In this document: one piece after another, positions 31,261 through 58,749 of the stretch | Numbering within the stretch: position 1 is the first letter of the stretch | Layout: each line of letters opens with the position of its first letter | Assembly (NCBI GenBank): GCA_029865385.1 | Contig: JAOUGX010000013.1 | Span: 1-64,000, forward strand | DNA: 64,000 bases | DNA from: Gammaproteobacteria bacterium | GTDB taxonomy: Bacteria; Pseudomonadota; Gammaproteobacteria; Steroidobacterales; Woeseiaceae | Direction: 5' to 3' | Position numbers and translations under genes: made by a program | Notes under the pieces: model-generated | What the model was told of the DNA's origin: nothing | The model's database searches: none | The model's input: only the letters and a program-made list of their open reading frames with translations

Positions 31261-31298
31261 ATTCCCGCGGAGATCGGCCGACCGATAAAACACTTCAG

Positions 31299-38189: not shown

Positions 38190-38359
38190 CCGTCATCGCA
38201 ACGTTCCTGCTTGCCTTTGCCATCTTGTTTGTCGTCATTGTCGGGATGGCGATAGGTGTACTGAACGGACGCAGGCCCATCAGTGGCAGTTGCGGCGGAT
38301 TGAACGGTGGTCGTTGCGACCTGTGTAGCGGAAGTTGCGTCGAGGAGACGGAACGATGA
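38186..38359 (+). CDS. nqrM: Na+-NQR maturation protein NqrM (DUF539)
   Basis: 57 residues, overlapping apbE and the CBS-domain gene by ATGA on each side. One N-terminal membrane helix (FLLAFAILFVVIVGMAIGVL), then SGSCGG and GGRCDLCSGSC, four cysteines at 36, 44, 47 and 51. NqrM is required to load the iron centre of the NqrD/NqrE pair. The protein is somewhat shorter than most homologues but keeps all Cys. Confidence 0.92.
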   Translation: MTVIATFLLAFAILFVVIVGMAIGVLNGRRPISGSCGGLNGGRCDLCSGSCVEETER

Positions 38360-38760
38360 ATCAGAAACCGGGCCTGGTCAGGGACTACATGGCAAAACAC
38401 CTCGTCTCTTTTTCGCCGGACATGGATGTGCTGGATGCAATCCACGAACTCGTTCGCCACCGCATTGCGGGCGCGCCCGTCGTCGATGAGCACGGCGACC
38501 TGGTCGGCATGCTGTCGGAACTGGATTGCATGAGGGTTGCGCTGAATGCCGGCTACTACAGTCAGCGCGGCGGCCCGGTTGCCAACTACATGAGCAAAGG
38601 CGTGGAGACAATCGATGCCGACATGAGCATCATCGATCTGGCGCAAAAATTTCTCGAATCCAGTTACCGGCGGTTTCCCGTGATGAAAAACAACCGCCTC
38701 GTAGGTCAGATCAGCCGCCGCGACGTACTGCGAGCATTACAGGCGCTCGCTGCCGGCTAG
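38356..38760 (+). CDS. two-CBS-domain protein at the end of the nqr operon
   Basis: 134 residues, two CBS motifs in tandem: VRDYMAKHLVSFSPDMDVLD to VVDEHGDLVGMLSE, and YMSKGVETIDADMSIIDLAQ to FPVMKNNRLVGQISRRDVLR. No other domain. Stand-alone CBS pairs often bind adenine nucleotides and modulate partners. Coupling to nqrM by ATGA suggests a role linked to Na+-NQR, which is inference. It is convergent with the next gene, overlapping by 4 bp. Confidence 0.85.
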   Translation: MNQKPGLVRDYMAKHLVSFSPDMDVLDAIHELVRHRIAGAPVVDEHGDLVGMLSELDCMRVALNAGYYSQRGGPVANYMSKGVETIDADMSIIDLAQKFLESSYRRFPVMKNNRLVGQISRRDVLRALQALAAG

Positions 38761-40507: not shown

Positions 40508-41764
40508 TTATCGATTCTCTCCGACATTCCTCCGCAGCGATGGTACGAACTTGTTGATGATCCAGAAAAGCACGAACGGCGTTGCGATCACCGTCAATGC
40601 TCCAAACAGGCCTTCTTTGAAAGTCTCAATGCTGTGCGGAATGATGGGTATGTGGTAGTGCATGTAGCCCGAGAAAGACAGGGAAAATGCCTGGCCGCCG
40701 ATCACGACATTCCAGCGCATCATGAAGACGCCGAACAGCACCAGCAACAGTGCCAGAACAGTTCGCTTCATCGTGCGACCCGGCAATATCAACAGAATGA
40801 ACGGCACAAGATTTCCGAGCGTGTACTGCAGCACGAATATGTTCATGAAGTCCTTTCCGTACATCACCGATCGCAGGATGTCCCAGGATTTCATTGCTGT
40901 GTAGCCGCGAAAAATCAAATCCAGTATTTCCAGGCTGATCGCCGCCACGAGGAACCCGAGCAGATATCTTGCCGACTTGGTGATGACATCCACTTCCGCA
41001 CCCTTTATGTCACGGGCCTCGATAGTCCCGCCGCCTCGTCGCTCGCGAAAGGCCCGCCATTCCATGATGATGATGTAGGTCAGCATGCATAATGCAATGC
41101 CTGATACGACAGCCGACATGATAAAAATCACTGGCATCAGCGGTGACATCCACAATGCATTGGCTTTGACGGAGCCGAATATGAAACCGGCATAGCCGTG
41201 CAGGAAGCAGGCAACCGGAATGCCGATTGCCGCCAGTATTTTGGCCGCTTTTTTGTCTATTCTGATCGCACCATCGCTGACATCGTAAGCACCTATAGTA
41301 AGGACTCGATAGACACTGCGACTCATCGCATTCGAAAGCCCGGGCTTGCCCTTCAGTGAATGAACCTGCTCGACGAAGTACTGGCGATAGACGAACCAGA
41401 TCTCGCTGAGGACGATCAGCCCATAGGTCGTAAATACGATACCAAATGCTGCTATCGCCGACGTGAAGTGCGGAGTCAGCAATGGTTCCATGGCGCGTGT
41501 CGGCTGTTGCAGATGCAGCAACAGTGGCAATGCGGCAACGGGCAGTAAAGCCAGCGAAAACACCAGGGAGAACTGTGCAATTTCCTTGAGCTCTTTTTGA
41601 CCGAATACGTGATAAAGCGATGACAGAACGAAAGCACCCGCCACAAGTCCGGTCATGTATGGATACATGACGATCTGGATACTCCAGTAGATGAATTCAT
41701 TAGGGTATACGAACAATTCCTTGACGGTCCATTCTGCTCCGTGAACGATTACGTCTGCGGACAT
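40508..41764 (-). CDS. NrfD/PsrC-family quinol-interacting membrane subunit
   Basis: 418 residues with about ten membrane helices. The C-terminal MRWNVVIGGQAFSLSFSGYM segment is characteristic of the DsrP/NrfD branch. Members exchange electrons between quinol and a periplasmic four-cluster ferredoxin, here the product of 41769-42539. It is the last gene of a five-gene cytochrome operon (46608 to 40508). Electron direction is not decided by sequence. Confidence 0.9.
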   Translation of the reverse strand: MSADVIVHGAEWTVKELFVYPNEFIYWSIQIVMYPYMTGLVAGAFVLSSLYHVFGQKELKEIAQFSLVFSLALLPVAALPLLLHLQQPTRAMEPLLTPHFTSAIAAFGIVFTTYGLIVLSEIWFVYRQYFVEQVHSLKGKPGLSNAMSRSVYRVLTIGAYDVSDGAIRIDKKAAKILAAIGIPVACFLHGYAGFIFGSVKANALWMSPLMPVIFIMSAVVSGIALCMLTYIIIMEWRAFRERRGGGTIEARDIKGAEVDVITKSARYLLGFLVAAISLEILDLIFRGYTAMKSWDILRSVMYGKDFMNIFVLQYTLGNLVPFILLILPGRTMKRTVLALLLVLFGVFMMRWNVVIGGQAFSLSFSGYMHYHIPIIPHSIETFKEGLFGALTVIATPFVLFWIINKFVPSLRRNVGENR

Positions 41765-41768
41765 GAAA

Positions 41769-42539
41769 TCACCTCACGTTGAAGTCGAGACCGAGATAAA
41801 AGACATGCGGTTTCGTGCCATATTCGTCTTTCAAGACCGCCACTCTTTCGGTCGTAATGATTTTGGTAACAGGATCGTCGGGATCCTCCAGGTTGGCCAG
41901 TCGGCGAGCGCCGAAAGAACAGCACTCGACGCAGGCCGGCTGCATGCCTTTTGTGATCCGGTGGTAACAGAAGTTGCACTTGTCGGCGACCTTTTGTTCC
42001 GGGTGAAAAAACCGGACGCCATAAGGACAGGCCATGATGCAATAGCCGCAACCGATGCACCAATTTCTATCAATCAATACGACGCCGTCATTCGTCTGGT
42101 AGGTTGCTCCAACGGGACATACCTGAACGCAGGGCGGATTGTCACACTGATTGCAAAGTTTCGGCACGAAAAATGCCTTATCGATATTCTTGGGATCGAT
42201 TTCTTCGTCGCGTATTTTGTCGTCGATGTACCCATCGCGGCCACCCAGCGGCGAGTCGATATGGGTCTCGCCGTCTTTGGTGATTACGTAGCGCTCGACC
42301 CAGGTTCGCGTTACTGGCGCATCGTAGGGAATCTCATTTTCGGTCTTGCAGGCCTTTACACATAAGCCACAGCCGGTGCATTTCTGTGTATCGACCAGAA
42401 ACGCCCATCTCACTTTTGAGCCGTCGATGGCTGCTTTGGCTTCCTCTGGACTCAGCAAGACAAATGCGCTCAGTGGCATGACAGATGCCAGCGTTCCGCC
42501 CATCGCTTCTTTTAAGAAGTCTCTCCGTGAACAACTCAT
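41769..42539 (-). CDS. periplasmic four-cluster ferredoxin (DsrO/NrfC/PsrB-like)
   Basis: 256 residues with a Tat signal (CSRRDFLKEAMGG). Four [4Fe-4S] sets: CTGCGLCVKAC, CNQCDNPPCVQVCP, CIGCGYCIMACP and CNFC..ACVECC. Spacing fits the DsrO/NrfC family, which sits on the periplasmic face of the NrfD subunit. The start overlaps the stop of the tetraheme gene (ATGA) and its stop lies 4 bp before the nrfD-like gene, so the three form one module. Confidence 0.92.
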   Translation of the reverse strand: MSCSRRDFLKEAMGGTLASVMPLSAFVLLSPEEAKAAIDGSKVRWAFLVDTQKCTGCGLCVKACKTENEIPYDAPVTRTWVERYVITKDGETHIDSPLGGRDGYIDDKIRDEEIDPKNIDKAFFVPKLCNQCDNPPCVQVCPVGATYQTNDGVVLIDRNWCIGCGYCIMACPYGVRFFHPEQKVADKCNFCYHRITKGMQPACVECCSFGARRLANLEDPDDPVTKIITTERVAVLKDEYGTKPHVFYLGLDFNVR

Positions 42540-43006
42540 GTCTCATCTCCCTGCGGTTTGTGCGGGTTATGACATTCAGAGCATTCGCGTCTGCGCTTGT
42601 GCATCCGGTTACTGATTTGCGGAGCCTGTTCCCGGGCACTGTGTGGATAGCCGAGCGATGCGTGGCAGCGAAGGCACAGCTCGCGCGTGGTATCTATCGG
42701 CAGTAACTCGACCACATCCGGATGGTTAACGCCTGGCCCATGACAGTTTTCGCACTCGACCGCCGCATGTGGCGAGTTGTTAAGTGACTGTACGTTCTCT
42801 TCGTGACATTCGACGCAGGTTTCCCGGCCCTGGTACTTGACCGGAAAATCCTTCCACTCCTGTACATTGCTGAGTCGGTAAAATCCGTAGGTGAAGTTCC
42901 GTCCGTGAATACCGAAGTCGTCCGGCACAAGGAACAGGCGCGCGACCAGGATTGCCGCAACCAGTCCGATCGCTACCCACAACGGGCGCAGTACGTGCCA
43001 CTTCAT
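42536..43006 (-). CDS. membrane-anchored tetraheme cytochrome c
   Basis: 156 residues; one N-terminal anchor (LWVAIGLVAAILVARLFLV), then four CxxCH sites: CVECH, CENCH, CLRCH, CSECH. The HNPH after the last site is typical of multiheme electron carriers. It should pass electrons between the ferredoxin/NrfD pair and other periplasmic cytochromes. Translation is coupled to the ferredoxin gene. The 169-bp gap before it (43007-43175) shows no gene. Confidence 0.88.
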   Translation of the reverse strand: MKWHVLRPLWVAIGLVAAILVARLFLVPDDFGIHGRNFTYGFYRLSNVQEWKDFPVKYQGRETCVECHEENVQSLNNSPHAAVECENCHGPGVNHPDVVELLPIDTTRELCLRCHASLGYPHSAREQAPQISNRMHKRRRECSECHNPHKPQGDET

Positions 43007-43175
43007 CTTCGTCGCTCCCGCAACACACCAAAGTCGCGAACGGTCTATGTGCTGTCGATGTCACACCGCCCCCGCGCAAAAGCCGGTTCATCGATTGCAC
43101 GATTCATTGTTCTCAGCCAGTAGGAATACGTAGCAGGACGATATCCCACAATACGTATTAGCCGTAGTGAGCGTC

Positions 43176-44579
43176 CTATGGGTGCAGATCTGAAAGTATC
43201 CGGGGATTCTCTTCTTTCTCCGCGAGCACGATGTGGCAGGTGTCGCAGTCGCGCGATATCACTTCTCGATCCTCCGTTCGCAGTTTCTTCCCATGACAAC
43301 GGAAACAGCCCGGCGATCGCTCGTGACCGACATGTTCCGGATAGGTGTTCCACCAGACCTTCATATTCGGAAATACGTTGTTCGCATAGATATCGCCGAG
43401 CGCCGCTGCTGCTGCACTAACGTCGTCCTGCCTGTCAGTGGTAATCGCGGGATAATTGGCGGCGTAGTACTGGGTCAATTGCTCAGCGACAGCCTTGCGC
43501 GCTTCGTCGTGAGACTCATACTCCGCGTCGATGATGCGCAGGCCCTCGCGCTTTACGAATGGCAGCGACTGATCGATTGCACCGGACTTGATAGCGAGAT
43601 CGATCTCGGTATCGGGTGGTTGGTATTTGTGGCTGGGCCGGTTGTGGCAGTCGACGCAGTCCATGAGCCGCCATACACCTTCATCTTCGGGCGCTTTTCG
43701 ATCCGTGAAAACTTTTGCCGTCCCGTCGGCATTCTTGTATTCCACTTCGTAGATATTCTCGCGCGTCTCGTCCGACCGGTAGCGAATACTGACGCCCGGA
43801 TCGACATGCCAGTGAATGCCGGAGGACTGCTGGCCCTCGGCGCCGCCAACCTTCAGCAGCAGCGCGGTCGTCAACTGCGTGTTTGCCTCGTCGTCGGCAT
43901 AGCGCGTCTTGATTGCGAGCTTGTCGCCAACGAAGCGATCCGGCCAGTGACACTGTTCGCAGGTTTCCCGAGCCGGGCGAAGGTCGTGAAGCGGCGTCGG
44001 AATCGGACGCGGATAAAGATCGAACGCAACAGCCACGAGCTGCCAAGCGCCGTCGAGCTTCGATTTGACGAACCAGTCGGCGCCGGGACCAATATGACAA
44101 TCGGCACAGGCAACCCGCGAATGCGACGACCGCTGATAAGCGGTATGTTCGGGCTCCATGACCGAGTGGCAAGCGAGGCCGCAGAACTCGACTGACTCCA
44201 TCACCTCGACGCCCTTGTAAGTGGCACCCGCGAGTATGACGATATTGATCATTGTTGCCCCCAGCAGCACAAACAACCAGCGGCGCGTCTTGGGGACATT
44301 CAGGTCAAACACGGGCAGCAGCAGCGTTTTCTCATCGCCATGAACACGATGTAGTTTGCGGCGATACAACAGCGCACCGACCGGAATCAGTATCAACCCG
44401 GTAACAAACAGCACGGGCAGGATGAGGTATGTGAGGATGCCGAGATACGGGCCGCCCTCGAAGCCGAGCTGTTCCATGAAAAACAGGCTGATGATGAGAA
44501 CAAGGCTCGCGATCGCGAGACCGGTTCCGGCCAGACTGATGCCGTTGCGTGTGATCGACGCAAGAAAATTTCTGAACAT
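43176..44579 (-). CDS. NapC/NirT-type multiheme cytochrome, ImcH-like
   Basis: 467 residues from the ATG at 44579 (AGAGGATAACC before it); an upstream in-frame start at 44636 is less likely. Three membrane helices in the first 140 residues, then a NapC/NirT-like region. The first site is an unusual CGLACH (CX3CH), followed by five CxxCH: CADCH, CEQCH, CVDCH, CFRCH, CDTCH. SVMEPEHTAYQRSSHSRVAC and CHIGPGADWFVKSKL are family text. Three helices plus NapC-like and extra hemes resemble Geobacter ImcH, a quinol oxidase for extracellular electron transfer, which has seven hemes. Orthology is not proven. Confidence 0.85.
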   Translation of the reverse strand: MFRNFLASITRNGISLAGTGLAIASLVLIISLFFMEQLGFEGGPYLGILTYLILPVLFVTGLILIPVGALLYRRKLHRVHGDEKTLLLPVFDLNVPKTRRWLFVLLGATMINIVILAGATYKGVEVMESVEFCGLACHSVMEPEHTAYQRSSHSRVACADCHIGPGADWFVKSKLDGAWQLVAVAFDLYPRPIPTPLHDLRPARETCEQCHWPDRFVGDKLAIKTRYADDEANTQLTTALLLKVGGAEGQQSSGIHWHVDPGVSIRYRSDETRENIYEVEYKNADGTAKVFTDRKAPEDEGVWRLMDCVDCHNRPSHKYQPPDTEIDLAIKSGAIDQSLPFVKREGLRIIDAEYESHDEARKAVAEQLTQYYAANYPAITTDRQDDVSAAAAALGDIYANNVFPNMKVWWNTYPEHVGHERSPGCFRCHGKKLRTEDREVISRDCDTCHIVLAEKEENPRILSDLHP

Positions 44580-44667
44580 GGTTATCCTCTGTGTTCCTTT
44601 GGTCCGTGCTTTATTTTTGCTTGTGTTTTCGACCAACCGGGCCGGATACTTTTGTTCCCGACCGTGA

Positions 44668-46608
44668 TCAGTGGGTCAGCAGCGCCCAGATTATCCCGAC
44701 TGCCAGAAAGACGCCAATGGTGAGGAAAACCGTTCCCCAGACATAGGCTCTTCGACGTTCCTCCGCTGTTGGAGGATCGACAAGATAGCTTTGCAGTTCG
44801 TTGTTGTCGACGAGCCGCTGATACTCGAGAGGCCGCTCGGATTTGAAGTGCTCAAGGGACATCTTGCCAGTGAAGATCACCGTATCCATCGGGAAGGTCT
44901 CCGGCCGCAGGTGCGTGTGGAAGAAGTGGAACACGAAAATAAAGCCAGTCGCGAGCAGTGCTTCGTCGCTATGAATAACGTAGGCAGCATTGATCGTCCA
45001 GCCTGGCAGGAATGTCGTGAAAACCATCGGCAACCACAACATCAGGCCCGACAGCCCGATAATCATTACGCCCCAGAAAACGGCCAGGTAATCGAACTTC
45101 TCGATATAGTTCCAGCGGTCATTGCCAGGGCGCTTTCCCAGGTACAGGAAATATCGGAAATTGGCGAGGATATCGGCAATATCCTTTGGCTGCGGCATCA
45201 TCGAATTGGGCCCCCAGAACAGGCCGCGTTCGCGCCTTACTACCCAACGGACAAACAGATTGCCGAGATGAAACAGCATGTAACCGAAGGTGCCAATCGC
45301 GGCAACGCGGTGAATGAACCCGGCCGACTCGACGCCGCCAAGCAGACTCATCAACTGTTGCGCCCAAGCGGCGTCATGAAACTTAAGCGGCAGACCCGTT
45401 AAGGCAAGCAGCAGGAAGGTAACGATAATGATCAGGTGAATTCGAATGTCCATCGTCGAAAAACGTCGGATGTACTGGCCGTTTTCCTGCGGCCCCCGGC
45501 GGAATTCGCCGCGCATCGCGCCGACGAGTGTGCGTTGCAGCCAGAACAGATCGTGCAGACCGAAGAAACTGAATACGGCAATCAGCAGGCCGGTCATGAA
45601 TATCCAGACAATGTACACGTAGTAGTTGTCGTCCGGGTTCGTCGGATCGTTATGCGGATCGAAGGTGAGAAGCGATGCGGTCACACCTTCATGGCAGGCA
45701 CCGCAGGTCTCGACCAGGTTGTCGGGATGTACGCTCGATCGCGGATCGTCCGCGCCCAGGTTCCTGTGCGGCGTATGGCAGTCGGCACAGGTTGCTCCGC
45801 GAACGAAGCCGAGCTCGTTTGCCTTGCCATGGAAACTGTCCCGGAATGTCGTCAGATATTCGGCGTGACATTCGCCGCAGACGTCGGCGGAGGCCAGGCG
45901 CGCCTCCGACCTGGTCGGATCTGCGATCTTGTGCGACGCGTGACAATCGATGCAGACCGGGCCCTCCTCGCCTGCCTGCCAGGCCAGACCATGGGCACTT
46001 TCGGATTTCCATTCCTCGAACAACAACAAGTGACAGGAACCGCATACGTCCGGGCTCTTGAAATGCGAGGTGGCCGCCTTGTCTCCGTCCGCCTCGACGA
46101 TGCCGTGGGCGCCGTGACAGTCGCTGCAACTCGGCGCATCAATCAACCCGGAGAGCAACAGTGCCTTGCCATGCTCACTCGTCAGGTAGCTGTCGATCAG
46201 CGATTCCGGCTCGTCGTGGCAGCCGCCACAGTACCTGATCTGGTTGACCGGAGAGACGGCCGAGGCGAGGTCGTCAACCTTGTGAATTTCGTGGGGAGCG
46301 CCGTGGCAGTCCAGGCAACTTGCCTTGCCGCCGTGGATGCTGCGACCGACTTCACGACTCTGGCGCCGATGGCAGTCACTGCAGCTTTGATCGCCCAGGG
46401 GTTCGAGATCCTGGCCTTTATGCTCCGCTGTCACCCCGGAATGGCAATCGCTGCAGCTCAGGTCCGGATGTGCTGATGACCTGAAAATGCCAGCATCGTG
46501 ACAGCCGGCACAGTCGATTTCCTGAGCCTCGGCGGGTGACGCAAGGATTGCCAGACCAAGCAAGAAGACAACGGGGAAACCGCCATGGACGCGAGTGATC
46601 GGAAACAT
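44668..46608 (-). CDS. 11-heme cytochrome c fused to cytochrome b, CbcL-like
   Basis: 646 residues. After a signal peptide, eleven CxxCH motifs occur at residues 33, 52, 76, 98, 127, 161, 189, 219, 244, 274 and 302. A membrane part follows from about residue 330. It holds a five-helix cytochrome b561/FdnI/HydC-like region with His residues in helices ([60 protein letters not shown]) able to hold two b hemes. The c-plus-HydC fusion matches the plan of Geobacter CbcL, an inner-membrane quinol oxidase for extracellular acceptors. It is the first gene of the five-gene operon, 88 bp before the ImcH-like gene. Confidence 0.88.
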
Positions 46609-46762
46609 CGTTAGAAACTCAGAAACAGGCCGTTGCCTCTAAGTATTGGAATCACTCACAAATCACAATGGGTGTTTTCCGAAGTCGGGTCGCCACAGCG
46701 ATTATCGGCAGGAAATTCGGCGAGCAGACGCTCAAGCCTGCTCGCCGGCATGTCGATTTTGT

Positions 46763-47368
46763 TTATTGCTGGCTGGCGTAGTAGTGCATCAGCGCCTTGA
46801 TGTCGTCGTCACTCAGGGCATCGATCTTCGTCTGCATCTTTTCCGGTTGCTCGCGCTCGCCGGCACGATACTCGGCAAAAGTCACTTTGAGATAGCCCAT
46901 CCACTGACCGGCAAGCAGACTCGCGTCGTCCTCGATGTTCGATCCTCCCTCAGTGTGGCAAATCTCGCAATCGCGCTCGTGAATTTTCTGTCCTGCGGCA
47001 GCCAGCGCCGCATCGAATTCCTGTTTCGCCGCAACAAAGGGCAGCGCCGCATAATGGGCGCCCAGCGCGTCTATCTGATCGTCGCTCAGGTCGGCTGTGA
47101 CGTTACACATGTTCGTCACCACGCCGCTGCTGGTCTTTGCGTCTTTGCAGGGTCGCTCCTTGTCACGGTAAAAATACAGCTGATCGGCCTGGTAGTAATC
47201 CGACAATCCGGCGATCGCCGGCACCTCGCTGCCCGACTTCAGGCTATCCGCACCGTGGCAGCTGTCGCAGCTCTTCACGATGCTCTCTATGTCCGCCAGG
47301 GCGGCGCCACCAAGGCAGAGCCAGGCAACGGTCGCCATGACTGCTGCACAGACGTTTCTTGTGTTCAA
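46763..47368 (-). CDS. periplasmic diheme cytochrome c, c4-like (copy 1)
   Basis: 201 residues from a TTG start with an AAGGAG box 8 bp upstream. Signal peptide ends near GGAALA. Two heme sites: CDSCH near residue 34 and CEICH near 134, in two halves as in cytochrome c4. Between them lies an extra Cys pair (RPCKDAKTSSGVVTNMC) that could form a disulfide. The C-terminus ends YYASQQ, as in the paralogue at 49283-49897. A 154-bp gap separates it from the 11-heme gene; it is likely a periplasmic shuttle for the operon. Confidence 0.87.
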   Translation of the reverse strand: MNTRNVCAAVMATVAWLCLGGAALADIESIVKSCDSCHGADSLKSGSEVPAIAGLSDYYQADQLYFYRDKERPCKDAKTSSGVVTNMCNVTADLSDDQIDALGAHYAALPFVAAKQEFDAALAAAGQKIHERDCEICHTEGGSNIEDDASLLAGQWMGYLKVTFAEYRAGEREQPEKMQTKIDALSDDDIKALMHYYASQQ

Positions 47369-47476
47369 TTTCGTACTCCTTCTACCGCATCACGCAGTAT
47401 TCCCGATTTTAGATCATTTTGTGTGACTGTAGAACCGACACTACGCCACCACGATACGTACATTCCGGGCTTCGGC

Positions 47477-48754
47477 TTACCCCGGAATGGTCGTCTCGCG
47501 CGCGATATTGTGCCTCATCTGATCGCGCAGATTGTTAACCCCGGTGAAAAATTCGCGCATCATCATTACCCACAGATAATAGCCGCTCTCTGTTAACACC
47601 AGCTGAACGCCGGTATTTCTGACGGCCCCGATCGATTGCAGCATGACCAATTCCGCCCATACGGTTCGCTGGAATCCGCCGCCGAAGCGCTGCTCCGCAA
47701 CCGCTTTGTCGAGCGAACCACTGAACAACTGCATCAAGAGGTAATAACGCATCTGTTCGCGCCGGCTCAGGCCCGACCGGCGCACGATGCCCGACTCCCC
47801 GGAATCGATCAGGCTGAGGTAGTGATTTATCGAGAAGGTGCTGGCATACAGGCTTCCGTCAAGATAGCTGAATGCTCCGCTGCCGAGGCCGAGGTATTCC
47901 TCGTGTTCGGTGATGTACTCGTCGATCATCGACGGCACGCGCGAGAAGCACCAGGCCGAGGAGCGCATGTATCCGGCGTCCTGCATGTGACCGGCAATGA
48001 GTTCGTAGAACGTCCGCTCCCGGTCGAATGTGACTTCGCCGATGTCCTTTCGCATTGCCTTGCGCGTCGTTTTCGCCGACATCAGCGGATAAAAGGAAAT
48101 CTGATCCACGCCGAGTTCTTCGGTAAGTATCTGCAGATCGGTCTTCAGCATATCCCTGGTCTGATGAGGAAAATTGAAGATCATGTCGACGTTCAGCGTA
48201 TCGAACAGACCTTTGGCCGATTTCAGGCGCGTGCGAATCCGTTCGCTACTGCCGTATTTGTCGTAACGTTGCATCTCTTTGAGCAGCTTGTCATCAAAAC
48301 TCTGCACACCGACCGAAAGCCGGTTGACGCCTGCGTCCCGCATACGCGGCAGGCTGTCATTTTCGAGATCGTCAGGATTCGTCTCCACGGAAACGCGCGC
48401 GACCGGATGCTGATCGCGGACCATCCTGACCGTGGCAATCAGCTCATCCGGCAGCACCGTGGGTGTACCGCCACCGACGTACAGTTCCGAGAAACAGAAT
48501 CCGGAGCGGCCGGCCTTCTCGATCTCGCGCCGCAAAGCCTGAAAATAGCGAGTCGCCCTGTCTTCACGAAATTCCACGCGATGAAACGAGCAGAACGGGC
48601 ACAGCACGATACAAAAAGGAATATGCAGGTAAAGCAGGTACTGCCGGTCGCTGCGAGGCATTGGCAGGTGTGTGATCCCGGCATCACCGTCGAATCGCAT
48701 GTAACGGCGACTGCTGCGACGAAAATACCAACTGAGGAGACTGGCGATACTCAT
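47477..48754 (-). CDS. HemN/HemW-like radical SAM protein
   Basis: 425 residues. The radical SAM motif is HIPFCIVLCPFCSFH (CX3CX2C), with ELYVGGGTPTVLPDELIATV and VETNPDDLENDSLPRMRDAG. These are signatures of coproporphyrinogen III dehydrogenase and the heme chaperone HemW. The family member here lacks the exact HemN N-terminal text, so it may handle heme or be a methyltransferase-like relative. Its place among genes coding for about 45 c-type hemes suggests heme supply. Confidence 0.82.
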   Translation of the reverse strand: MSIASLLSWYFRRSSRRYMRFDGDAGITHLPMPRSDRQYLLYLHIPFCIVLCPFCSFHRVEFREDRATRYFQALRREIEKAGRSGFCFSELYVGGGTPTVLPDELIATVRMVRDQHPVARVSVETNPDDLENDSLPRMRDAGVNRLSVGVQSFDDKLLKEMQRYDKYGSSERIRTRLKSAKGLFDTLNVDMIFNFPHQTRDMLKTDLQILTEELGVDQISFYPLMSAKTTRKAMRKDIGEVTFDRERTFYELIAGHMQDAGYMRSSAWCFSRVPSMIDEYITEHEEYLGLGSGAFSYLDGSLYASTFSINHYLSLIDSGESGIVRRSGLSRREQMRYYLLMQLFSGSLDKAVAEQRFGGGFQRTVWAELVMLQSIGAVRNTGVQLVLTESGYYLWVMMMREFFTGVNNLRDQMRHNIARETTIPG

Positions 48755-48819
48755 GCGGTGGCCGATTCAGGGACACTCGCCTGTGGGCACGCTGGATTAA
48801 CGCGGCCCACCACCTGTAG

Positions 48820-49194
48820 CTACTGAGCGTACAGCGGAGCGATATCGATATATATCCGGTAACCGGAGATCAGATCATCGCGAAGGTCGAAAACATCGGC
48901 GAATGGCAGCGTGATTTCACTTCCGTCGTGGCGACGGTAGGTAACTTCGCCTTCGCAAGCGAAAGTGCTGGCAGTCTCCCAGTTCTGGTGCAGCACATGC
49001 CGACATCCGGCAATACTGGAAAAAAATGCGTCAACAGCACCGGCAATGGCATTACGACCGTGAACGGCCGGCGCCGAACCAAAGCGAAAAACCGCATCGC
49101 CGGTCAGCGCGGCCACGAATTGCCGGGTATCCTTGCGATCAATCGCGGCAAACACTTCTTTCATCCGGCCGATCACAGCATTGTCGTCAGGCAT
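48820..49194 (-). CDS. SnoaL-like/NTF2-fold protein
   Basis: 124 residues forming one NTF2-like cone: MKEVFAAIDRKDTRQFVAAL at the start, RFGSAPAVHGRNAI and YRRHDGSEITLPFADVFDLR later. This fold serves as small-molecule isomerase, hydrolase or binding protein. No specific role is readable; it lies between a HemW-like gene and a diheme cytochrome gene, on the same strand. Confidence 0.75.
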   Translation of the reverse strand: MPDDNAVIGRMKEVFAAIDRKDTRQFVAALTGDAVFRFGSAPAVHGRNAIAGAVDAFFSSIAGCRHVLHQNWETASTFACEGEVTYRRHDGSEITLPFADVFDLRDDLISGYRIYIDIAPLYAQ

Positions 49195-49225
49195 TCTGTG
49201 TCGCTCCTTTGCGAAATTTGAAATG

Positions 49226-49273
49226 GGGACATTCCTGATTTAGCGTATTTATACGCTAAATCAGGAATGTCCC
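49226..49273. repeat. perfect 23-bp inverted repeat, REP-like
   Basis: GGGACATTCCTGATTTAGCG plus TAT (49226-49248) is repeated as an exact reverse complement at 49251-49273 over a 2-base loop, so the 48-bp element is almost a perfect palindrome. It is preceded by AAATG, as in the element at 9263-9362 (AAATGGGG head). It starts 10 bp past the stop of the diheme gene on the minus strand but has no T-tract, so it is more likely a mobile repeat than a classical terminator. Confidence 0.8.
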
Positions 49274-49282
49274 GATTATTCG

Positions 49283-49897
49283 CTATTGCTGGCTGGCGTA
49301 ATAGTCCAGCAGTGCTTTGACGTCGTCGGCGCTCAGGGCATCCATTTTTTCTTTCATTTTGGATGGTTGATCTCGTTTGCCGCTCGTATACTCTGCAAAC
49401 GACGATTTCAGGTAGCCCTTCCACTGCCCGGCAAGAATTCCGGCTTCGTCGTCGGGATTCGAGCCGCCATCCGAATGGCATTGCTCGCATTGTTTCTTGT
49501 GGACAGCTTCCCCGGCAGCGGCCAACGATGGGTCAAAATCCTGCTTAGCGGCGACAAACGACAGCTTGGCATAGTAGGTCGCGACGTCTGCCCTTGCCTC
49601 CTCGCTTAGATCTGCGGCTACAGCACACATCGTCGTCGCGGGACGGTTCGTATCGCCTTGGCGAAACCTGCTTTCGGCGCAGGGACGTCCCTCGTCAGCA
49701 AAAATATACAGCGCGTCCTCGTGAACGGACTCCGACACGCCGGCGATGGTCGGCACGTCCGTCCACTGGCTGACGCCGTCCTTGCCGTGGCAGTCATTGC
49801 ATGATTTGACAATGGAACTGACGTCCGCCGCCTGCGACGCGCCGGCGCCCAGGATCAACAATCCTGTAATCAGAAGGCCTTTCGATTTCTTTATCAT
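49283..49897 (-). CDS. periplasmic diheme cytochrome c, c4-like (copy 2)
   Basis: 204 residues from the ATG at 49897. Signal peptide with LILGAGASQAAD. Heme sites CNDCH (about residue 34) and CEQCH (about 138). As in the paralogue at 46763-47368, an extra Cys pair lies between them (RPCAESRFRQGD..TTMC), and the C-terminus reads LSADDVKALLDYYASQQ. Both copies share FVAAKQ and LAGQWxGYLK segments. It is divergent from mtrC across a 220-bp gap (49898-50117), where I see only a short GGACTCAGTCC palindrome at 50050-50060. Confidence 0.87.
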   Translation of the reverse strand: MIKKSKGLLITGLLILGAGASQAADVSSIVKSCNDCHGKDGVSQWTDVPTIAGVSESVHEDALYIFADEGRPCAESRFRQGDTNRPATTMCAVAADLSEEARADVATYYAKLSFVAAKQDFDPSLAAAGEAVHKKQCEQCHSDGGSNPDDEAGILAGQWKGYLKSSFAEYTSGKRDQPSKMKEKMDALSADDVKALLDYYASQQ

Positions 49898-50117
49898 GTC
49901 GGTACCTCTGTAAAGCACGGCCGCATGCCGGCAAAAAATCGCACCTGTCTTTGTGCCATGTATTGACCGCTCCTGCCAGTCGTAGTTGCGCGCCAAACTC
50001 ATAAGTACATCCCGCAATGAGAAAAGCTGGCATCATCTCGTAACATTCCGGACTCAGTCCAAAAACACTTTTTTTGCCGACTCCGGCACTTGGCACTTAA
50101 GAATCCAGGGGAGCGTT

Positions 50118-52388
50118 ATGAGTAGTCTTCGCGCCATCGGCCTTGCCACCATCGTATTCACCGCACTCGCGCTCGGAGCCTGCTCCGGTGATGACGGCGC
50201 AGCCGGCCCGCAGGGTCCGCAGGGTCCGCAGGGTCCGCAGGGCAACCCGGGCGGCAGCGGAACAGCGGGCGGTGTGCCGATTGACAGCGCCGACAGAATT
50301 AATATCGAGGTCGTCAGTTTCGGCTTTGACCCGGTAAGCAGCAAGCCGGTGGTAAATTTCAGACTGACCAACGACCTGACGCAGGGCCTGTTCGGACTGC
50401 CGGCCACGAGCATCGGTTTCATGCTGTCGCAGCTGACGCCCGCCGTACCTGGCAGCGGCGGATCGAGCGAGTGGCAAAGCTATGTGACGCGTTCCAGTGC
50501 GGGAGTCCCGAACGCCCAGGCGACAACGGAAGGCGGCACGGCAGGGGCGTTTGTAGACAACGACGATGGCACCTATCAATACACGTTTGCACAGCTGCTC
50601 GACGACTATCCGGCTGGCCCGACATACGATGCGAACAAGACCCATCGGCTCGGCATCGAGATTCGCGGCCAGGCGCCGACCTCAAACAACGGCCTTTACG
50701 ATTTCATACCGGTCACAGGCTTACCACCGGATCCGCTTTTGGATGAAGAACGCAAGATCGTCGACAACGACACCTGCAATGCCTGCCATGACCGTCTCGA
50801 ATTCCACGGCGGCGCGCGCTTCGACATCGGCTACTGCGTGACCTGCCATAACCCGTATTCGACCGACGAGGACTCGGGCAATTCGGTCGACATGAAGCGC
50901 TTGATCCACAACATTCACGTTGGTCGCGATGGCTTTTTCATCATCGGCTTCGGCGGCATCGTGCACGACTACTCGGATATCGTTTTTCCGCAAGACATCA
51001 GGAACTGCCAGACCTGCCACGAGGAAGACGACACCAATACGCCACAGGCAAGCAACTGGCGCCTCGTGCCGAACCGCATGGCCTGCGGCACCTGCCATTA
51101 CGACGATGGGCTCGCCAACGGCGAACACGAGTACGCGATCGAAAACGGCGTCCACCCGGGCGGCTTCCAGTTCAACGACGACACGCAGTGCGTCGATTGC
51201 CACGGGCCGAACGGCACGGTCACCAATTCCGAGGGCAGGCTGGTACGGGTTGCGCTCATCCACGAGATTCTCGAGGACACAGCCGCAAAAGCATTCGAAT
51301 ACGAGGTCGTCAGCGTCAGCAACAGCGGCCCAGGCCAGATTCCGACGGTCAGCATTCGCGTGCTGAATCCGCAGGATCCCAACTACGCTGCAAACCCGGC
51401 CAGCACCGCCTACGACATCAACGACCCGGCGGGTCCGTTCCAGGCCGGCAGTTCGGCTTTGCGGCTGGACATTGCCTGGAACAACACGGATCTCGGCAAC
51501 CTGGATCCGAATGACGACCTGGCACGCTCGCCAACCGCAGGTGCGCCATTTGCGCCAATCACGATCGACTTCAAGACCGGCGCAGTGAACGACGGCAGCA
51601 ACACGTTTACCAAAGCGGCACCTGCCGCCGTACCGACCGGCATTACCGGCTCCGGCATGGCGATCCTGGAAGGCCGCCCCGCGGTCGATATCAACGGCAC
51701 GCTGACCACGCTGTCGGTAGCCGCGAGCGGCATACCGTATGCCATCACCGACGCGACGGCGCGGGATCGTCGCCACGTGGTCAACATCGGCAAGTGCAAC
51801 GATTGCCACAAGAACCTGTCGCTGCACGGTAACAATCGTAGTGGCAACACCGAAGTTTGCTCGACCTGCCACAACCCGAACGCCACGGACGTCCAGCGGC
51901 GGGTCGCCGGCTCGGCATGCGATATTGCACTTGGCCTCGACGACGAAGCCATCGACATGAAACGCATGGTTCATCGCATTCATGCCGGAAACGTCGGTAT
52001 CTGCGGATTCCAGAACTCTGCGCATCCGTATTTCGACGTTGTCTATCCCGGCCACCTGAACAACTGCGAAGGCTGCCACCTTGCGGGCACCTATTACCCG
52101 GTCGACCCGGCTGTAGTTCTGGCAACGACGGTCGATGTCGGCGCCGATCGCTCGACGCTGACGGACGACGTGGCGATCTCGCCCAACACTGCGGTTTGCT
52201 CCGGTTGCCATACCGATTCGCTGGCGGCCGAACACATGAAGCAGAACGGTGGTGATTTCGCCGCCGGCAAGGACGATACCGGCGCGCTGATCTCCTCCGG
52301 CGTCGAGACCTGCAGCCTTTGCCACGGCCCCGGCCGCACGGCAGACGTTGCCGTCATGCACGGTGTCGGCGAGTTCGAGTTCAACTGA
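50118..52388 (+). CDS. mtrC: outer-membrane decaheme cytochrome, OmcA/MtrC family
   Basis: 756 residues from the ATG at 50118, preceded by AGGGGAG; the frame is open to 49986 but this start gives a clean lipoprotein signal (LALGACSG, Cys22). After a collagen-like GPQ repeat and a beta-rich domain, ten CxxCH sites occur in two groups of five, near residues 219, 241, 297, 323, 358 and 560, 582, 651, 694, 732. The two pentaheme groups separated by a beta domain match MtrC/OmcA/UndA architecture. It should face the cell exterior and exchange electrons with minerals, flavins or other cells. Confidence 0.93.
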   Translation: MSSLRAIGLATIVFTALALGACSGDDGAAGPQGPQGPQGPQGNPGGSGTAGGVPIDSADRINIEVVSFGFDPVSSKPVVNFRLTNDLTQGLFGLPATSIGFMLSQLTPAVPGSGGSSEWQSYVTRSSAGVPNAQATTEGGTAGAFVDNDDGTYQYTFAQLLDDYPAGPTYDANKTHRLGIEIRGQAPTSNNGLYDFIPVTGLPPDPLLDEERKIVDNDTCNACHDRLEFHGGARFDIGYCVTCHNPYSTDEDSGNSVDMKRLIHNIHVGRDGFFIIGFGGIVHDYSDIVFPQDIRNCQTCHEEDDTNTPQASNWRLVPNRMACGTCHYDDGLANGEHEYAIENGVHPGGFQFNDDTQCVDCHGPNGTVTNSEGRLVRVALIHEILEDTAAKAFEYEVVSVSNSGPGQIPTVSIRVLNPQDPNYAANPASTAYDINDPAGPFQAGSSALRLDIAWNNTDLGNLDPNDDLARSPTAGAPFAPITIDFKTGAVNDGSNTFTKAAPAAVPTGITGSGMAILEGRPAVDINGTLTTLSVAASGIPYAITDATARDRRHVVNIGKCNDCHKNLSLHGNNRSGNTEVCSTCHNPNATDVQRRVAGSACDIALGLDDEAIDMKRMVHRIHAGNVGICGFQNSAHPYFDVVYPGHLNNCEGCHLAGTYYPVDPAVVLATTVDVGADRSTLTDDVAISPNTAVCSGCHTDSLAAEHMKQNGGDFAAGKDDTGALISSGVETCSLCHGPGRTADVAVMHGVGEFEFN
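50205..50252 (+). repeat. 9-bp tandem repeat encoding a Gly-Pro-Gln linker
   Basis: GGTCCGCAG units are repeated four times (the first as GGCCCGCAG) in frame near the start of mtrC, coding GPQGPQGPQGPQGNPGGSG about eight residues after the lipidated Cys. It probably forms a flexible or collagen-like spacer between membrane anchor and cytochrome body. Near-identical units favour length change by slippage. Confidence 0.85.
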
Positions 52389-52397
52389 TGAGAAAGG

Positions 52398-52425
52398 GCA
52401 TCGCGATTGGGCGATGCCTTTTTTC
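52398..52425 (+). terminator. rho-independent terminator between mtrC and mtrA
   Basis: GGCATCGC pairs with GCGATGCC over a 6-base loop (GATTGG) and is followed by six T, starting 9 bp after the mtrC stop. The mtrA start lies 28 bp further on. It should reduce readthrough into mtrAB, unless mtrA has its own promoter, for which there is little room. Confidence 0.8.
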
Positions 52426-52452
52426 AGCAGCTGCTCGCCGGTTTAGCCAGGG

Positions 52453-53403
52453 ATGCCCATCAACATGAAATCGCGCAGGTTTCACAAGCTTGTCACGCTG
52501 TTGCTAGTCTGTACGCCGCTGACGATCACGGCACTGTCGGCCGACGATGCCAGTCCCGAGTACAGCCGAAAAGGCGCGGATACCTGCATCGGCTGCCATG
52601 ATGAACAGGCAACGCTTGACCTGTTCCATACCCGACACGGCGTACCCAGCGATCCGCGCAGCCCTTTTGGCCGCGGCCAGCTGCAGTGCGAGGCCTGCCA
52701 CGGGCCGGGCGGCGATCATGCCGGTCGCGTACGGCGTGGCGAGGAACGGCCGCCGGTTATTCGTTTCGGCAAGGACTCCGAGACCGACGTGCTGGTACAA
52801 AATGGCAAGTGCCTCGGCTGTCACGAAGAGAGTGCGGATTTCGCCTGGCACGGCAGCGGGCACGACGACAACCAGGTCGGATGCGCCGACTGCCACCAGG
52901 TCCACAATGCACACGACCCGGTACGGGCGACTGCCAGCCAGCCAGAGGTGTGCTTCGATTGCCATCAACAACAGCATGCGCAGTCGCTGAAGCCTTACTC
53001 GCATCCCTTCGATGAAGGCAAAATGGACTGCAGCGGCTGTCATAACCCGCACGGTACGGGAACGACCAATACGCTGTTCGTCCGCCAGACTCTGAACGAT
53101 ACTTGTTACGAATGTCATGCGGAAAAACGCGGGCCCTACCTGTGGGAACACGCGCCAGTCGTGGAAGACTGCTCCAGTTGCCATGAGCCGCACGGCTCCA
53201 ATAACCCCGGCATGGTCAGTCTGCGCGGGCCCATGCTGTGCCAGACCTGCCATTCGCAGGCCGGTCACCCGAGTATCCCGCGCGAAGCCGATGGCCTCGC
53301 CGACGCCGCGCCGTCACCGTACCTGCTGGCGCGCAACTGCCTGAACTGTCATACCCAGGTGCACGGGTCGAACCATCCGTCCGGCTCGAAGTTAATGCGG
53401 TGA
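52453..53403 (+). CDS. mtrA: periplasmic decaheme cytochrome MtrA/DmsE family
   Basis: 316 residues, signal peptide in the first 30. Ten CxxCH motifs: CIGCH, CEACH, CLGCH, CADCH, CFDCH, CSGCH, CYECH, CSSCH, CQTCH, CLNCH. MtrA-type text includes CHGPGGDHAG, CSGCHNPHG and CHEPHGSNNPGM. Length matches MtrA, which sits inside the MtrB barrel and wires the periplasm to MtrC. An in-frame ATG at 52465 is an alternative start. Its stop overlaps a possible GTG start of mtrB. Confidence 0.94.
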   Translation: MPINMKSRRFHKLVTLLLVCTPLTITALSADDASPEYSRKGADTCIGCHDEQATLDLFHTRHGVPSDPRSPFGRGQLQCEACHGPGGDHAGRVRRGEERPPVIRFGKDSETDVLVQNGKCLGCHEESADFAWHGSGHDDNQVGCADCHQVHNAHDPVRATASQPEVCFDCHQQQHAQSLKPYSHPFDEGKMDCSGCHNPHGTGTTNTLFVRQTLNDTCYECHAEKRGPYLWEHAPVVEDCSSCHEPHGSNNPGMVSLRGPMLCQTCHSQAGHPSIPREADGLADAAPSPYLLARNCLNCHTQVHGSNHPSGSKLMR

Positions 53404-53408
53404 AGACC

Positions 53409-55550
53409 ATGCAATTGCCGTTACGGCCAATAATCGATTCGAAGATCCTTTCATCACTGTTTGTGGCCGCCACGCTGGCCCTCTCTTACATGCCAGCCGC
53501 GAACGCGCAGGTCGACCCGGGTGAATGGAAGTGCGAATTTTGTCCTTTTACGAGCGGCTACGATGCCGAAGTGGATGTCGGCGCCGCCTACGTCAGTGAC
53601 GATGCCGCGAGATTCGGCAATGCGAATGGCTATGATGAGGCCGGCGCCTATGTCGATCTCGGTGGCGAAGGTCATTACGCGAATGACGGTTACCAGCTGA
53701 ACTGGTTTGCCGAGGATCTGGGCCTGGCGTCGCGTGTCTTCGAGATCGACGGCGGGCACCAGGGCAGCTACGGCTTTTACCTCGGATACAGCGAGCTGCC
53801 TTACCGTCTCTTCGATACGACCAGCACCGTATATACCGCATCGGCTCCGGATTCCCTCACGCTGCCCTCCGGCTGGGTCCGCGCCAATCAGACATCAGGA
53901 TTCACGAACCTCGCGAGTTCGCTTGTGCCGCAGAATATCGAAAGTGACCGCAAGAATTTCACAGCCGGCGGTCATTTCCTTGCCTCTTCGAACTTTCGTT
54001 TCTACGCCGACTACCGGCACCTGGAACGCGATGGCGTCGACATGGTATCCGGTGCCAATTTCACCCAGGCGAGCATTTTGCCGCGCGTGCTCGACAACGA
54101 AACTGACCTGATCGACCTCGGCGTCGGCTATTCGAACGGCCCGCTGAATTTGTCCCTTGCCTGGTTGGGTTCGTTCTTCACCAACAACGTGACGTCCCTG
54201 ACCTGGGAAAACGCCTTTACAGCACCGGCGGGTGAGGAACTACGGCGTATGGCGCAGGAACCGGACAATGATTTCCAGCAACTTTCGCTGTCCGGCAGTT
54301 ATCGCTTCAACGCTTATGCAACGGTGATCGCATTTTCTGCGTCCATGGGTCAGGGTGGCCAGAACGACAGCTTGCTGCCCTACACGATCAACCCGAACAT
54401 TGCCGCCGCTGCGCTGCCGAAAACGAGCCTCGACGGCAAAGTGGACACCAGCAACTACGCAGTCACTCTCACTGCAAATCCGCTGCCAAAGACCAGGATA
54501 AAACTGGCCTACCGCTACGACGAGCGTGACAACCAGACAGCACAGGTCCCTTGGTCGCGCGTAATCGTCGACAGTTTCGCATCCGGCGAGACTGAACTGA
54601 ATACGCCCTACAGCTTCAAGCGAATGCAGCTGAACGCCAGCGGTAGTTACGATCTTTTCGACGACCTGAGGGTGTCTGCGGGCTACGACCGGACCGATCT
54701 CGATCGCAGTTTCCAGGAAGTTGCATCGCAAACCGAAGACAGCGGCTGGGCCCGCGTCAAATGGCAAACAACCGAATGGCTTTCCGTCAATGCGAAAGGC
54801 GGCGCCTCCAGCCGCGACATCGATCGATACGACACGACAGTCGCGGCCGGTCTCGGACAAAATCCGCTCATGCGAAAATACAATCTCGCCTACCGCTACC
54901 GCGAATTCGGCGAGCTGATGGCCAGTATTTCGCCGATGAATCTGCCGGTAAGCGTTTCCCTGTCTGCGCTTTGGGCGGACGACAGCTACACGCGGTCGAC
55001 ACTCGGCATGACAGGCAGCACGACCACGCACTGGAACCTCGAGCTGAACTGGGCCGTATCCGCACGTGCCTCCGTTTACGTCTTCGGTGGCGAGGAGACG
55101 ATCGAAGCGGATCAGGCCGGTAGCGAAGCTTTCGCAGGCCCGGACTGGTTTGCCAATCACGAAGATGATTTCCTGATTCTCGGAGGCGGCTTGCAGCTCG
55201 CGAAACTCTGGGACAACACTGATCTGCGGCTGGACTATACGCACACCGAAGGCGACACCAGGATCGCGATGACAACCAGCGCCTCAGGTCGGAGCCAATT
55301 CCCGAGCATCGACACGACGCTCGAGTCCCTGCGCGTGACCGTGAACCACAAACGCTCGGAGAAACTTGAGCTGGATTTGTCACTCCGCTACGAAAGTTTC
55401 GATTCGAATGACTGGGCCATCGCCGGTGTCGAACCCGACACCATCCCCACAGTACTTTCACTCGGCGCGAATCCGTATGATTACGACGTCTGGGTGCTGG
55501 GTCTGAGCATCCGCTACCGGATCGGTGCAGCCAAACCCGCCACGCCGTAG
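53409..55550 (+). CDS. mtrB: outer-membrane beta-barrel MtrB/PioB family
   Basis: 713 residues from the ATG at 53409; a GTG at 53400 overlapping the mtrA stop is an alternative. Signal peptide to about ANAQ, then CEFC at residues 42-45, the same position as the CxxC of Shewanella MtrB. The rest alternates short amphipathic strands with aromatic girdles, expected for a 26-strand barrel, and ends in strand VWVLGLSIRYRIGA. It forms the sheath holding MtrA across the outer membrane. With mtrC and mtrA it completes the conduit. Confidence 0.92.
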   Translation: MQLPLRPIIDSKILSSLFVAATLALSYMPAANAQVDPGEWKCEFCPFTSGYDAEVDVGAAYVSDDAARFGNANGYDEAGAYVDLGGEGHYANDGYQLNWFAEDLGLASRVFEIDGGHQGSYGFYLGYSELPYRLFDTTSTVYTASAPDSLTLPSGWVRANQTSGFTNLASSLVPQNIESDRKNFTAGGHFLASSNFRFYADYRHLERDGVDMVSGANFTQASILPRVLDNETDLIDLGVGYSNGPLNLSLAWLGSFFTNNVTSLTWENAFTAPAGEELRRMAQEPDNDFQQLSLSGSYRFNAYATVIAFSASMGQGGQNDSLLPYTINPNIAAAALPKTSLDGKVDTSNYAVTLTANPLPKTRIKLAYRYDERDNQTAQVPWSRVIVDSFASGETELNTPYSFKRMQLNASGSYDLFDDLRVSAGYDRTDLDRSFQEVASQTEDSGWARVKWQTTEWLSVNAKGGASSRDIDRYDTTVAAGLGQNPLMRKYNLAYRYREFGELMASISPMNLPVSVSLSALWADDSYTRSTLGMTGSTTTHWNLELNWAVSARASVYVFGGEETIEADQAGSEAFAGPDWFANHEDDFLILGGGLQLAKLWDNTDLRLDYTHTEGDTRIAMTTSASGRSQFPSIDTTLESLRVTVNHKRSEKLELDLSLRYESFDSNDWAIAGVEPDTIPTVLSLGANPYDYDVWVLGLSIRYRIGAAKPATP

Positions 55551-56705: not shown

Positions 56706-58121
56706 ATGGATTTGCAATCAACTTACAACGACAAGGTGGTGCGCCAGTTTGCCATCATGACCGTCGTCTGGGGCGTGGTCGGCATGCTGGTAGGCGTGAT
56801 CATCGCCGCACAGCTGATCTGGCCGGGGCTCAGCCTGGATCTGCCGTGGCTATCCTACGGCCGGCTGCGGCCATTGCACACAAATGCCGTGATCTTCGCG
56901 TTCGGCGGCTCCGCACTCTTCGCCACGGCGTACTATGTCGTGCAGCGCACCTGCCACGTAAGACTCGCCTTCGACAAGCTGGCCGCCTTCACATTCTGGG
57001 GCTGGCAGGCGGTCATCGTGCTGGCCGCCATCACCTTGCCGCTCGGCATTACCCAGAGCAAGGAGTACGCGGAACTCGAATGGCCCATCGACCTGCTGAT
57101 TGCCGTTGTCTGGGTTTCCTACGCCGTCGTGTTCCTGACAACGATCGGCAGGCGCCGCGTCAAACACATCTACGTTGCCAACTGGTTCTATGCTGCGTTC
57201 ATCATCACGGTCGCCGTGCTGCACATCTTCAACAACCTCTCGATTCCGGTATCGATGTGGAAGTCCTATCCCGTCTATTCCGGCGTCGTCGATGCGATGA
57301 TGCAGTGGTGGTACGGGCACAACGCCGTCGGCTTCTTCCTGACCGCCGGCTTCCTCGGCATGATGTACTACTTCGTACCGAAGCAGGCGCAACGACCCGT
57401 TTATTCCTATCGGCTGTCGGTCGTGCATTTCTGGGCGCTCATTGCGATCTACATGTGGGCCGGCCCGCATCACCTGCACTACACCTCGCTGCCAAACTGG
57501 GCTCAATCCATCGGAATGGTGTTTTCCATCATTCTGCTCGCGCCCTCCTGGGGCGGCATGATCAACGGCATCATGACGCTCTCGGGTGCCTGGCATAAGC
57601 TCAGAACGGATCCGATTCTCAAGTTCATGATCGTTTCACTGTCCTTTTACGGCATGTCGACCTTCGAAGGACCGATGATGTCGATCAAGACCGTCAACGC
57701 GCTGTCGCACTACACCGACTGGACCATCGGCCATGTGCATTCCGGCGCGCTCGGCTGGGTCGCAATGATGACCATCGGCGCCTTGTATTGCCTGATTCCG
57801 CGGCTGTTCAACAAGGAGAGCATGCACTCGACAAAACTGATCGACGTGCATTTCTGGACCTCGACGATCGGTGTCGTTCTGTATGCCGTTTCGATGTGGA
57901 TATCCGGTATTACCCAGGGACTGATGTGGCGCGCGCTGAACGACGACGGAACCCTGACCTACTCTTTCATCGAAACAGTCAAATTCAACTATCCGTACTA
58001 CGGCCTGCGGCTGCTCGGTGGAGTTATCTTCCTCAGCGGCATGCTGATAATGGTCTACAACGTGTGGATGACGATCCGGCAGGTGAAACCGCAAGCTGTC
58101 GCCGTTATCCAGCCGGCATGA
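56706..58121 (+). CDS. ccoN: cbb3-type cytochrome c oxidase subunit I
   Basis: 471 residues, 12 membrane helices. Heme-copper oxidase text: [20 protein letters not shown] with a low-spin heme His, [20 protein letters not shown] with a CuB His, [16 protein letters not shown] with the His-His pair, and [17 protein letters not shown] with the heme ligands. It reduces O2 with high affinity and pumps protons. First gene of ccoNOQP. Confidence 0.96.
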
Positions 58122-58131
58122 GGTGCATAGC

Positions 58132-58737: not shown

Positions 58738-58749
58738 GGAGTCCGGACT

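Follow-up and report, generated by a model that had tools for sequence, protein, structure and literature searches.

We analyzed a stretch of 64,000 nucleotides (the window, positions 1 to 64,000 of contig JAOUGX010000013.1) from a metagenome-assembled genome (MAG) of the family Woeseiaceae that is 99.96% complete, with 3.4% contamination and 198 contigs. A 15-kb locus at positions 40508 to 55550 encodes the outer-membrane conduit proteins MtrC, MtrA and MtrB together with candidate inner-membrane and periplasmic electron carriers (Table 1). The left arm runs on the minus strand from a PdsA-like gene (starting at 49897) to an NrfD gene (ending at 40508). The mtrCAB genes lie divergently on the plus strand from 50118, across a gap of 220 bp, and the mtrA stop overlaps the GTG start of mtrB (at 53400) in the sequence GTGA. 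Every gene listed in an earlier, sequence-only reading of this DNA was found, and so were its 44 CXXCH motifs and one CX3CH motif. By motif counting, these are distributed over seven cytochromes: 4 in the tetraheme protein, 5 plus the CX3CH in the ImcH-like protein, 11 in the CbcL-like protein, 2 in each diheme protein, and 10 each in MtrC and MtrA. Some start coordinates were slightly corrected, as the true starts of the ImcH-like (44579), PdsA-like (49897), MtrC (50118) and MtrB (GTG, 53400) genes lie inside the longest open reading frames. Two genes of the left arm, encoding HemN-like and SnoaL-like proteins, had not been listed before. A six-frame count gave 45 CXXCH motifs in the region. 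Shuffled sequence had a mean of 0.93 and never more than 5, and three other 15-kb stretches of the window contained a single motif each.

The outer-membrane part is an MtrCAB family conduit, and its family membership is not in doubt: all three proteins score above the curated NCBIfam cut-offs. In a PDB search, MtrA and MtrB matched chains A and B of entry 6R2Q, the Shewanella baltica MtrCAB complex (E=1.6e-81 and 4e-65, respectively), both over nearly their full length. MtrC matched solved structures of MtrF (E=8e-49), OmcA and MtrC, including 3PMQ. By homology, the three proteins would function as an electron conduit.

Two of the putative inner-membrane proteins belong to families with published hallmarks. 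ImcH proteins have three N-terminal transmembrane (TM) helices, a CX3CH motif near the third and five to nine CX2CH motifs (PMC6295460). The 467-residue ImcH-like protein has TM helices at residues 12-41, 42-74 and 99-121, the sequence CGLACH at position 133 and five CX2CH motifs. Members of the CbcL/MtrH/MtoC family combine an N-terminal multiheme domain of 3 to 23 CX2CH motifs with a C-terminal part of about six TM helices, in which histidines for the b hemes are conserved (PMC6295460). The 646-residue CbcL-like protein carries its 11 CX2CH motifs within residues 33-306. A low-confidence model shows six long helices after them (329-365, 385-409, 426-457, 501-525, 548-566 and 615-645), hydropathy resolves four membrane helices, and histidines H352, H391, H433, H447, H546 and H561 are invariant. 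Geobacter CbcL proper has nine hemes, a count that the 11-heme protein of the window does not share. AlphaFold models of both proteins had mean pLDDT values (51 for ImcH, 50 for CbcL) too low for fold searches.

The third inner-membrane candidate is a tetraheme-FeS-NrfD module resembling NetBCD. Its FeS and NrfD subunits agree with NetC and NetD in architecture only, and the tetraheme protein (42536-43006) was not matched by the NetB model NF049875. Similarly, the second diheme cytochrome, the only copy scored, aligned with the whole PdsA model NF049874 at 188.6 bits, below the cut-off of 330. We therefore call these proteins NetBCD-like and PdsA-like. In a whole-genome search with PF03264 for CymA/NapC proteins, ImcH was the sole match above the cut-off, which extends to the entire genome the earlier statement that CymA is absent. 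Plasmid searches for named comparators of CbcL, MtrB and NrfD gave no useful match.

Table 1. Features of the multiheme cytochrome locus, in window coordinates
Feature	Position	Strand	Evidence
NrfD/PsrC-family membrane subunit, NetD-like	40508..41764	-	Pfam NrfD 123.9 bits; ~8 TM; 91% identity in L070
Four-cluster ferredoxin, Tat-exported (NrfC/TtrB-like, NetC-like)	41769..42539	-	Fer4_11 85.5 bits; RRDFL Tat motif; 4 Cys clusters; 89% identity in L070
Tetraheme cytochrome, membrane-anchored, NetB position	42536..43006	-	4 CXXCH; one N-terminal TM
ImcH-family cytochrome	43176..44579	-	3 TM, CX3CH, 5 CXXCH; tree
CbcL/MtrH/MtoC-family protein	44668..46608	-	11 CXXCH + cytochrome b membrane domain; tree
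PdsA-like diheme periplasmic cytochrome c, copy 1	46763..47368	-	2 CXXCH; Cytochrom_C/CBB3 domains; 71% identity in L033
Radical SAM HemN-like protein, coproporphyrinogen III oxidase family, PRK08629	47477..48754	-	NF006385 474 bits, cut-off 355; also in locus of L033, L034, L050, L053, L055
SnoaL-like small protein, conserved in locus	48820..49194	-	Pfam SnoaL_2 54.5 bits; next to PdsA in most relatives
PdsA-like diheme periplasmic cytochrome c, copy 2	49283..49897	-	NF049874 188.6 bits, full model, cut-off 330
Intergenic region, divergent pdsA-like/mtrC; presumed promoter region	49898..50117	.	
MtrC, outer-membrane decaheme lipoprotein	50118..52388	+	TIGR03507 480.8 bits, cut-off 209.3; lipobox LGAC; 10 CXXCH
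MtrA, periplasmic decaheme cytochrome	52453..53403	+	TIGR03508 286.1 bits, cut-off 192.2
MtrB, outer-membrane beta-barrel, N-terminal CXXC	53400..55550	+	TIGR03509 413.5 bits, cut-off 240.05

The association of these genes was surveyed in 107 genomes of the GTDB family Woeseiaceae; the counts are descriptive, since these genomes are not phylogenetically independent. ImcH was found in 41 genomes, a clear MtrB match in 54 and both in 34. MtrB was present in 34 of the 41 ImcH-positive genomes versus 20 of the 66 ImcH-negative ones (odds ratio 11, p=1e-7). CbcL accompanies ImcH in 38 of the 41 carriers. The two genes lie on one contig, at most 20 kb apart, in 19 of the 34 genomes with both, including that of the window; the probability of such proximity by chance is about 1% in any one genome. 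ImcH and Mtr genes share a neighborhood in 19 further Woeseiaceae loci, also in named MAGs. In a scan of named sequences, the closest ImcH proteins came from Woeseiaceae MAGs (JAHEFF010000008.1 among them), and Geobacter was not among the best 80 matches. In all genes tested dN was far below dS, showing that they are under purifying selection. Co-occurrence with mtrCAB in related genomes, on which the sequence-only reading had staked its proposal, was thus observed, and the linkage is conserved in Woeseiaceae.

The conserved order also bears on the possibility that a foreign contig was joined to this genome by assembly or binning. The genome is metagenome derived, with the fragmentation and contamination given above; however, many named Woeseiaceae MAGs, each assembled independently, show the same gene order, and the junction of mtrB, a DUF2189 gene and ccoN is repeated in a genome of the same genus (L223). 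An artifact is hardly credible, and we reject it.

A class-wide sample yielded ImcH in four genomes: two belonged to the Woeseiaceae, and the proteins of the other two were distant. No mtrB locus inspected outside the Woeseiaceae in that sample, some of them on short contigs, had an adjoining imcH gene. Adjacency of imcH and mtrAB was found in one Thioalkalivibrio MAG and a few Acidobacteriota. In three Acidobacteriota loci (L101, L139 and L140), homologues of mtrA/mtrB or of mtrC lie next to imcH and cbcL, which again departs from the published survey discussed below.

In the ImcH tree, which includes Geothrix and Anaeromyxobacter homologues and no Geobacter sequence, the Woeseiaceae proteins form a supported group. 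Two Thioalkalivibrio MAGs, of which at least one has mtrCAB adjacent, form its sister group; other gamma- and betaproteobacteria follow, then Myxococcota and Acidobacteriota. The Woeseiaceae genome L082 has a different ImcH and may have acquired it separately. In the CbcL tree, proteins of the window type fall among those of Pseudomonadota, and the 52-56% identity of the window's CbcL to Burkholderiales homologues makes a position on the MtrH/MtoC branch plausible, the tree having been built without reference MtrH/MtoC sequences. The description of the inner-membrane part as "Geobacter-like" thus holds at the level of the family.

The locus varies among relatives. A complete Wolinella-type quinol:fumarate reductase, frdCAB, whose FrdA scores above the curated cut-off, lies between imcH and the tetraheme gene in relatives; in the window's genome, frdCAB is on another contig. 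Two Woeseiaceae loci, L226 and L227, have the order mtrBAC-pdsA-SnoaL-frdCAB and look like an empty cassette site. Because they have no cbcL-imcH in between, the CbcL-ImcH pair looks like an insertable or removable cassette. In a second form of the locus (L059:5426-8287, also L057, L058, L061 and L062), the 646-residue CbcL is replaced by one of about 950 residues with up to 19 CXXCH motifs, accompanied by a second 11-heme CbcL-like protein, with ImcH adjoining. A cluster with a Crp/Fnr-family regulator with N-terminal cysteines (L072:790-1575) was seen in 13 related loci, not in that of the window.

This variability raises the question of whether the left-hand genes serve MtrCAB only in part, with the ImcH, CbcL or NrfD module feeding other periplasmic reductases in a general anaerobic-respiration island. 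The modules are separable, some Woeseiaceae (L221, L224-L228) keeping mtrCAB-pdsA without CbcL-ImcH; seven ImcH-positive genomes show no MtrB, and fumarate reductase occurs in the same island of relatives. Nevertheless, ImcH and MtrB are close neighbors in the 19 genomes mentioned above, and the 15 kb contain no gene for a terminal periplasmic reductase. We consider such a divided function improbable.

We favor, as the probable interpretation, a Woeseiaceae form of an MtrCAB extracellular-electron-transfer locus operating at low oxygen. Electrons of the quinol pool would leave the inner membrane through three parallel oxidoreductases (the ImcH-family, CbcL-family and tetraheme-FeS-NrfD proteins), PdsA-like diheme cytochromes would ferry them across the periplasm, and MtrA, MtrB and MtrC would pass them to extracellular Mn(IV), Fe(III) or humics. 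The three gates would probably match the quinol oxidase to the potential of the acceptor, by analogy with Geobacter ImcH and CbcL (PMC9129911). The earlier proposal of an extracellular-electron-transfer locus combining the ImcH and CbcL families with MtrCAB is borne out by gene content, family assignments and linkage.

Outward flow is suggested by four observations: the presence of frdCAB, the lack of a RuBisCO match in this genome, the restriction of ImcH so far to metal reducers (PMC6295460), and the report of sediment Woeseiaceae with mtrCAB, tied to iron reduction (PMC12175321). In particular, frdCAB, which relatives carry within the locus and this genome carries at another place, points to anaerobic quinol oxidation.

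The identity of the quinol is less conventional. MqnC was above the cut-off in none of the 107 Woeseiaceae genomes, and the futalosine pathway was represented only by CofG/CofH-like radical SAM proteins below the cut-off. MenD was above it in two genomes, both ImcH carriers (G097:C3 and G034:C117; loci L219 and L220). Neither protein was matched in the window's genome. Among the 20 ImcH-bearing genomes of good quality, both are missing from 19, this one included. The host thus appears to lack menaquinone synthesis, and the electron donor of the feeders is therefore probably ubiquinol or rhodoquinol. ImcH, CbcL and the NrfD-type complex are all known from menaquinol chemistry, and the quinol chemistry of Geobacter and Shewanella is not simply transferable to a host that appears to lack menaquinone. 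According to Baker et al. (PMC8805035), transfer of such a cluster would equip a recipient if genes for menaquinone synthesis are already there, which seems not to be the case in this host. Given potentials of -63 mV for rhodoquinone, -80 mV for menaquinone and +100 mV for ubiquinone (PMC6529003), rhodoquinone would be an adequate substitute for menaquinone, but ubiquinone would not for most iron oxides. A bolder reading, somewhat less likely than not, is a three-gate extracellular respiration without menaquinone in one of the most widespread families of marine sediments, in which ImcH, CbcL and the NrfD-type complex would have been recruited to MtrCAB as an exchangeable cassette and would use ubiquinol or rhodoquinol.

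The quinone question also bears on electron uptake from Fe(II), the chief rival to export. Fe(II), Mn(II) or other cells would then supply electrons to MtrCAB, and ubiquinone would be reduced by the modules of the CbcL and NrfD types, as has been proposed for the MtoAB/PioAB iron oxidizers. With MenD and MqnC missing, ubiquinone is a likely partner, and its potential favors accepting electrons; moreover, the CbcL/MtrH/MtoC family is found in Fe(II) oxidizers (PMC6295460), and the locus is followed, 1.2 kb downstream, by a cbb3 oxidase operon. We nevertheless regard uptake as unlikely given the missing RuBisCO, the frdCAB genes within the relatives' locus, and the occurrence of ImcH, so far, in metal reducers only, and because no MtoD-like or Cyc2-like gene is among the annotated genes of the locus. 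The metal-oxidation option of the sequence-only reading is accordingly disfavored by the lack of RuBisCO and the encoded fumarate reductase, though still conceivable.

Several points weigh against electron export through three gates. Ubiquinol, at +100 mV (PMC6529003), would donate electrons poorly to most Fe(III) oxides and is more consistent with uptake, and the low-confidence models of ImcH and CbcL are no test of quinone binding. Alternate use of the three gates would be drawn from analogy only. No FNR/CRP-type site was found in the pdsA-mtrC intergenic region of the window, and sites with at most one mismatch occurred in 1 of 37 loci versus 0.28 expected.

Other genes of energy metabolism surround the locus. 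A [NiFe] hydrogenase cluster (window 18184-29920) includes HypC, HypE, the small subunit (25126-26196), an HdrD/DsrK-like FeS protein (26843-28183) and the large subunit (28202-29920), making H2 a possible input to the same quinone pool. A Na+-translocating NADH:quinone reductase operon (30822-38189) ends with ApbE, and a CBS-domain gene (38356-38760) recurs near the locus in relatives. The cbb3 oxidase genes ccoNOP (56706-59807) directly follow mtrB and the DUF2189 gene, a junction also present in the same-genus genome G007.

Woeseiaceae occur widely in marine sediments, and their link to iron reduction has so far been made only because they carry mtrCAB. The locus points to the proteins that probably feed this conduit at the inner membrane. 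The combination is new, because the survey of Zhong and Shi in 2018 found no mtrAB beside imcH (PMC6295460); the locus shows that ImcH can adjoin MtrCAB after all. Its parts are known: PdsA/NetBCD with mtrCAB (PMC8805035), and MtrH/MtoC with mtrAB as well as ImcH with CbcL in one organism (PMC6295460), including the adjacency of ImcH and CbcL. What is new is ImcH, with CbcL, beside MtrCAB and conserved in a family, rather than a new type of machine. We found no published description of this locus in the open-access literature, which omits most subscription papers. Both the three different inner-membrane feeders and the genome's apparent lack of the usual menaquinone genes are unusual, and this lack makes testable the long-standing question of whether ImcH/CbcL gating is tied to menaquinol or to the potential of the acceptor.

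Among known systems, the Aeromonas/Vibrio mtrCAB-pdsA-netBCD (or cymA) clusters and the Group 3 mtrCAB clusters (PMC8805035) share with the window MtrCAB, a diheme carrier of the PdsA type and an inner-membrane module with FeS and NrfD subunits, and a HemN gene has been reported near mtr there as well. The window differs in the addition of ImcH and CbcL, in a diheme protein that scores under the curated PdsA cut-off and in a tetraheme protein that the NetB model does not match. The "Geobacter plus Shewanella" design of the sequence-only reading is too narrow, as it missed this likeness. Rhodoferax ferrireducens, an Fe(III) reducer and rhodoquinone producer, has the CbcL-family protein MtrH and two CymA in its mtrABC cluster (PMC6295460, PMC6529003); the mtoABCD clusters (PMC6295460) are close to this type. 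A CbcL/MtrH/MtoC-family protein thus adjoins mtrABC both in R. ferrireducens and in the window, whereas in the window, whose genome lacks CymA, ImcH and the NrfD module replace it. The architecture of the ImcH and CbcL families is shared with Geobacter sulfurreducens (PMC9129911, PMC6295460), with 6 versus 7 heme motifs in ImcH and 11 versus 9 in CbcL; in contrast, the window has MtrCAB instead of porin-cytochrome conduits and PpcA, and its quinone is likely not menaquinone. Desulfuromonas acetexigens, which is not a gammaproteobacterium, also unites both designs, with ImcH, CbcL, CymA and Mtr homologues in one genome (PMC12133095); its ImcH and CbcL accessions are consecutive, but the Mtr accessions are distant and probably not part of one locus. 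Finally, the window shares MtrC, MtrA and MtrB with the Shewanella MtrCAB-CymA system, with the near full-length matches to 6R2Q, and differs from it by the absence of CymA and by PdsA-like carriers in place of CctA and FccA.

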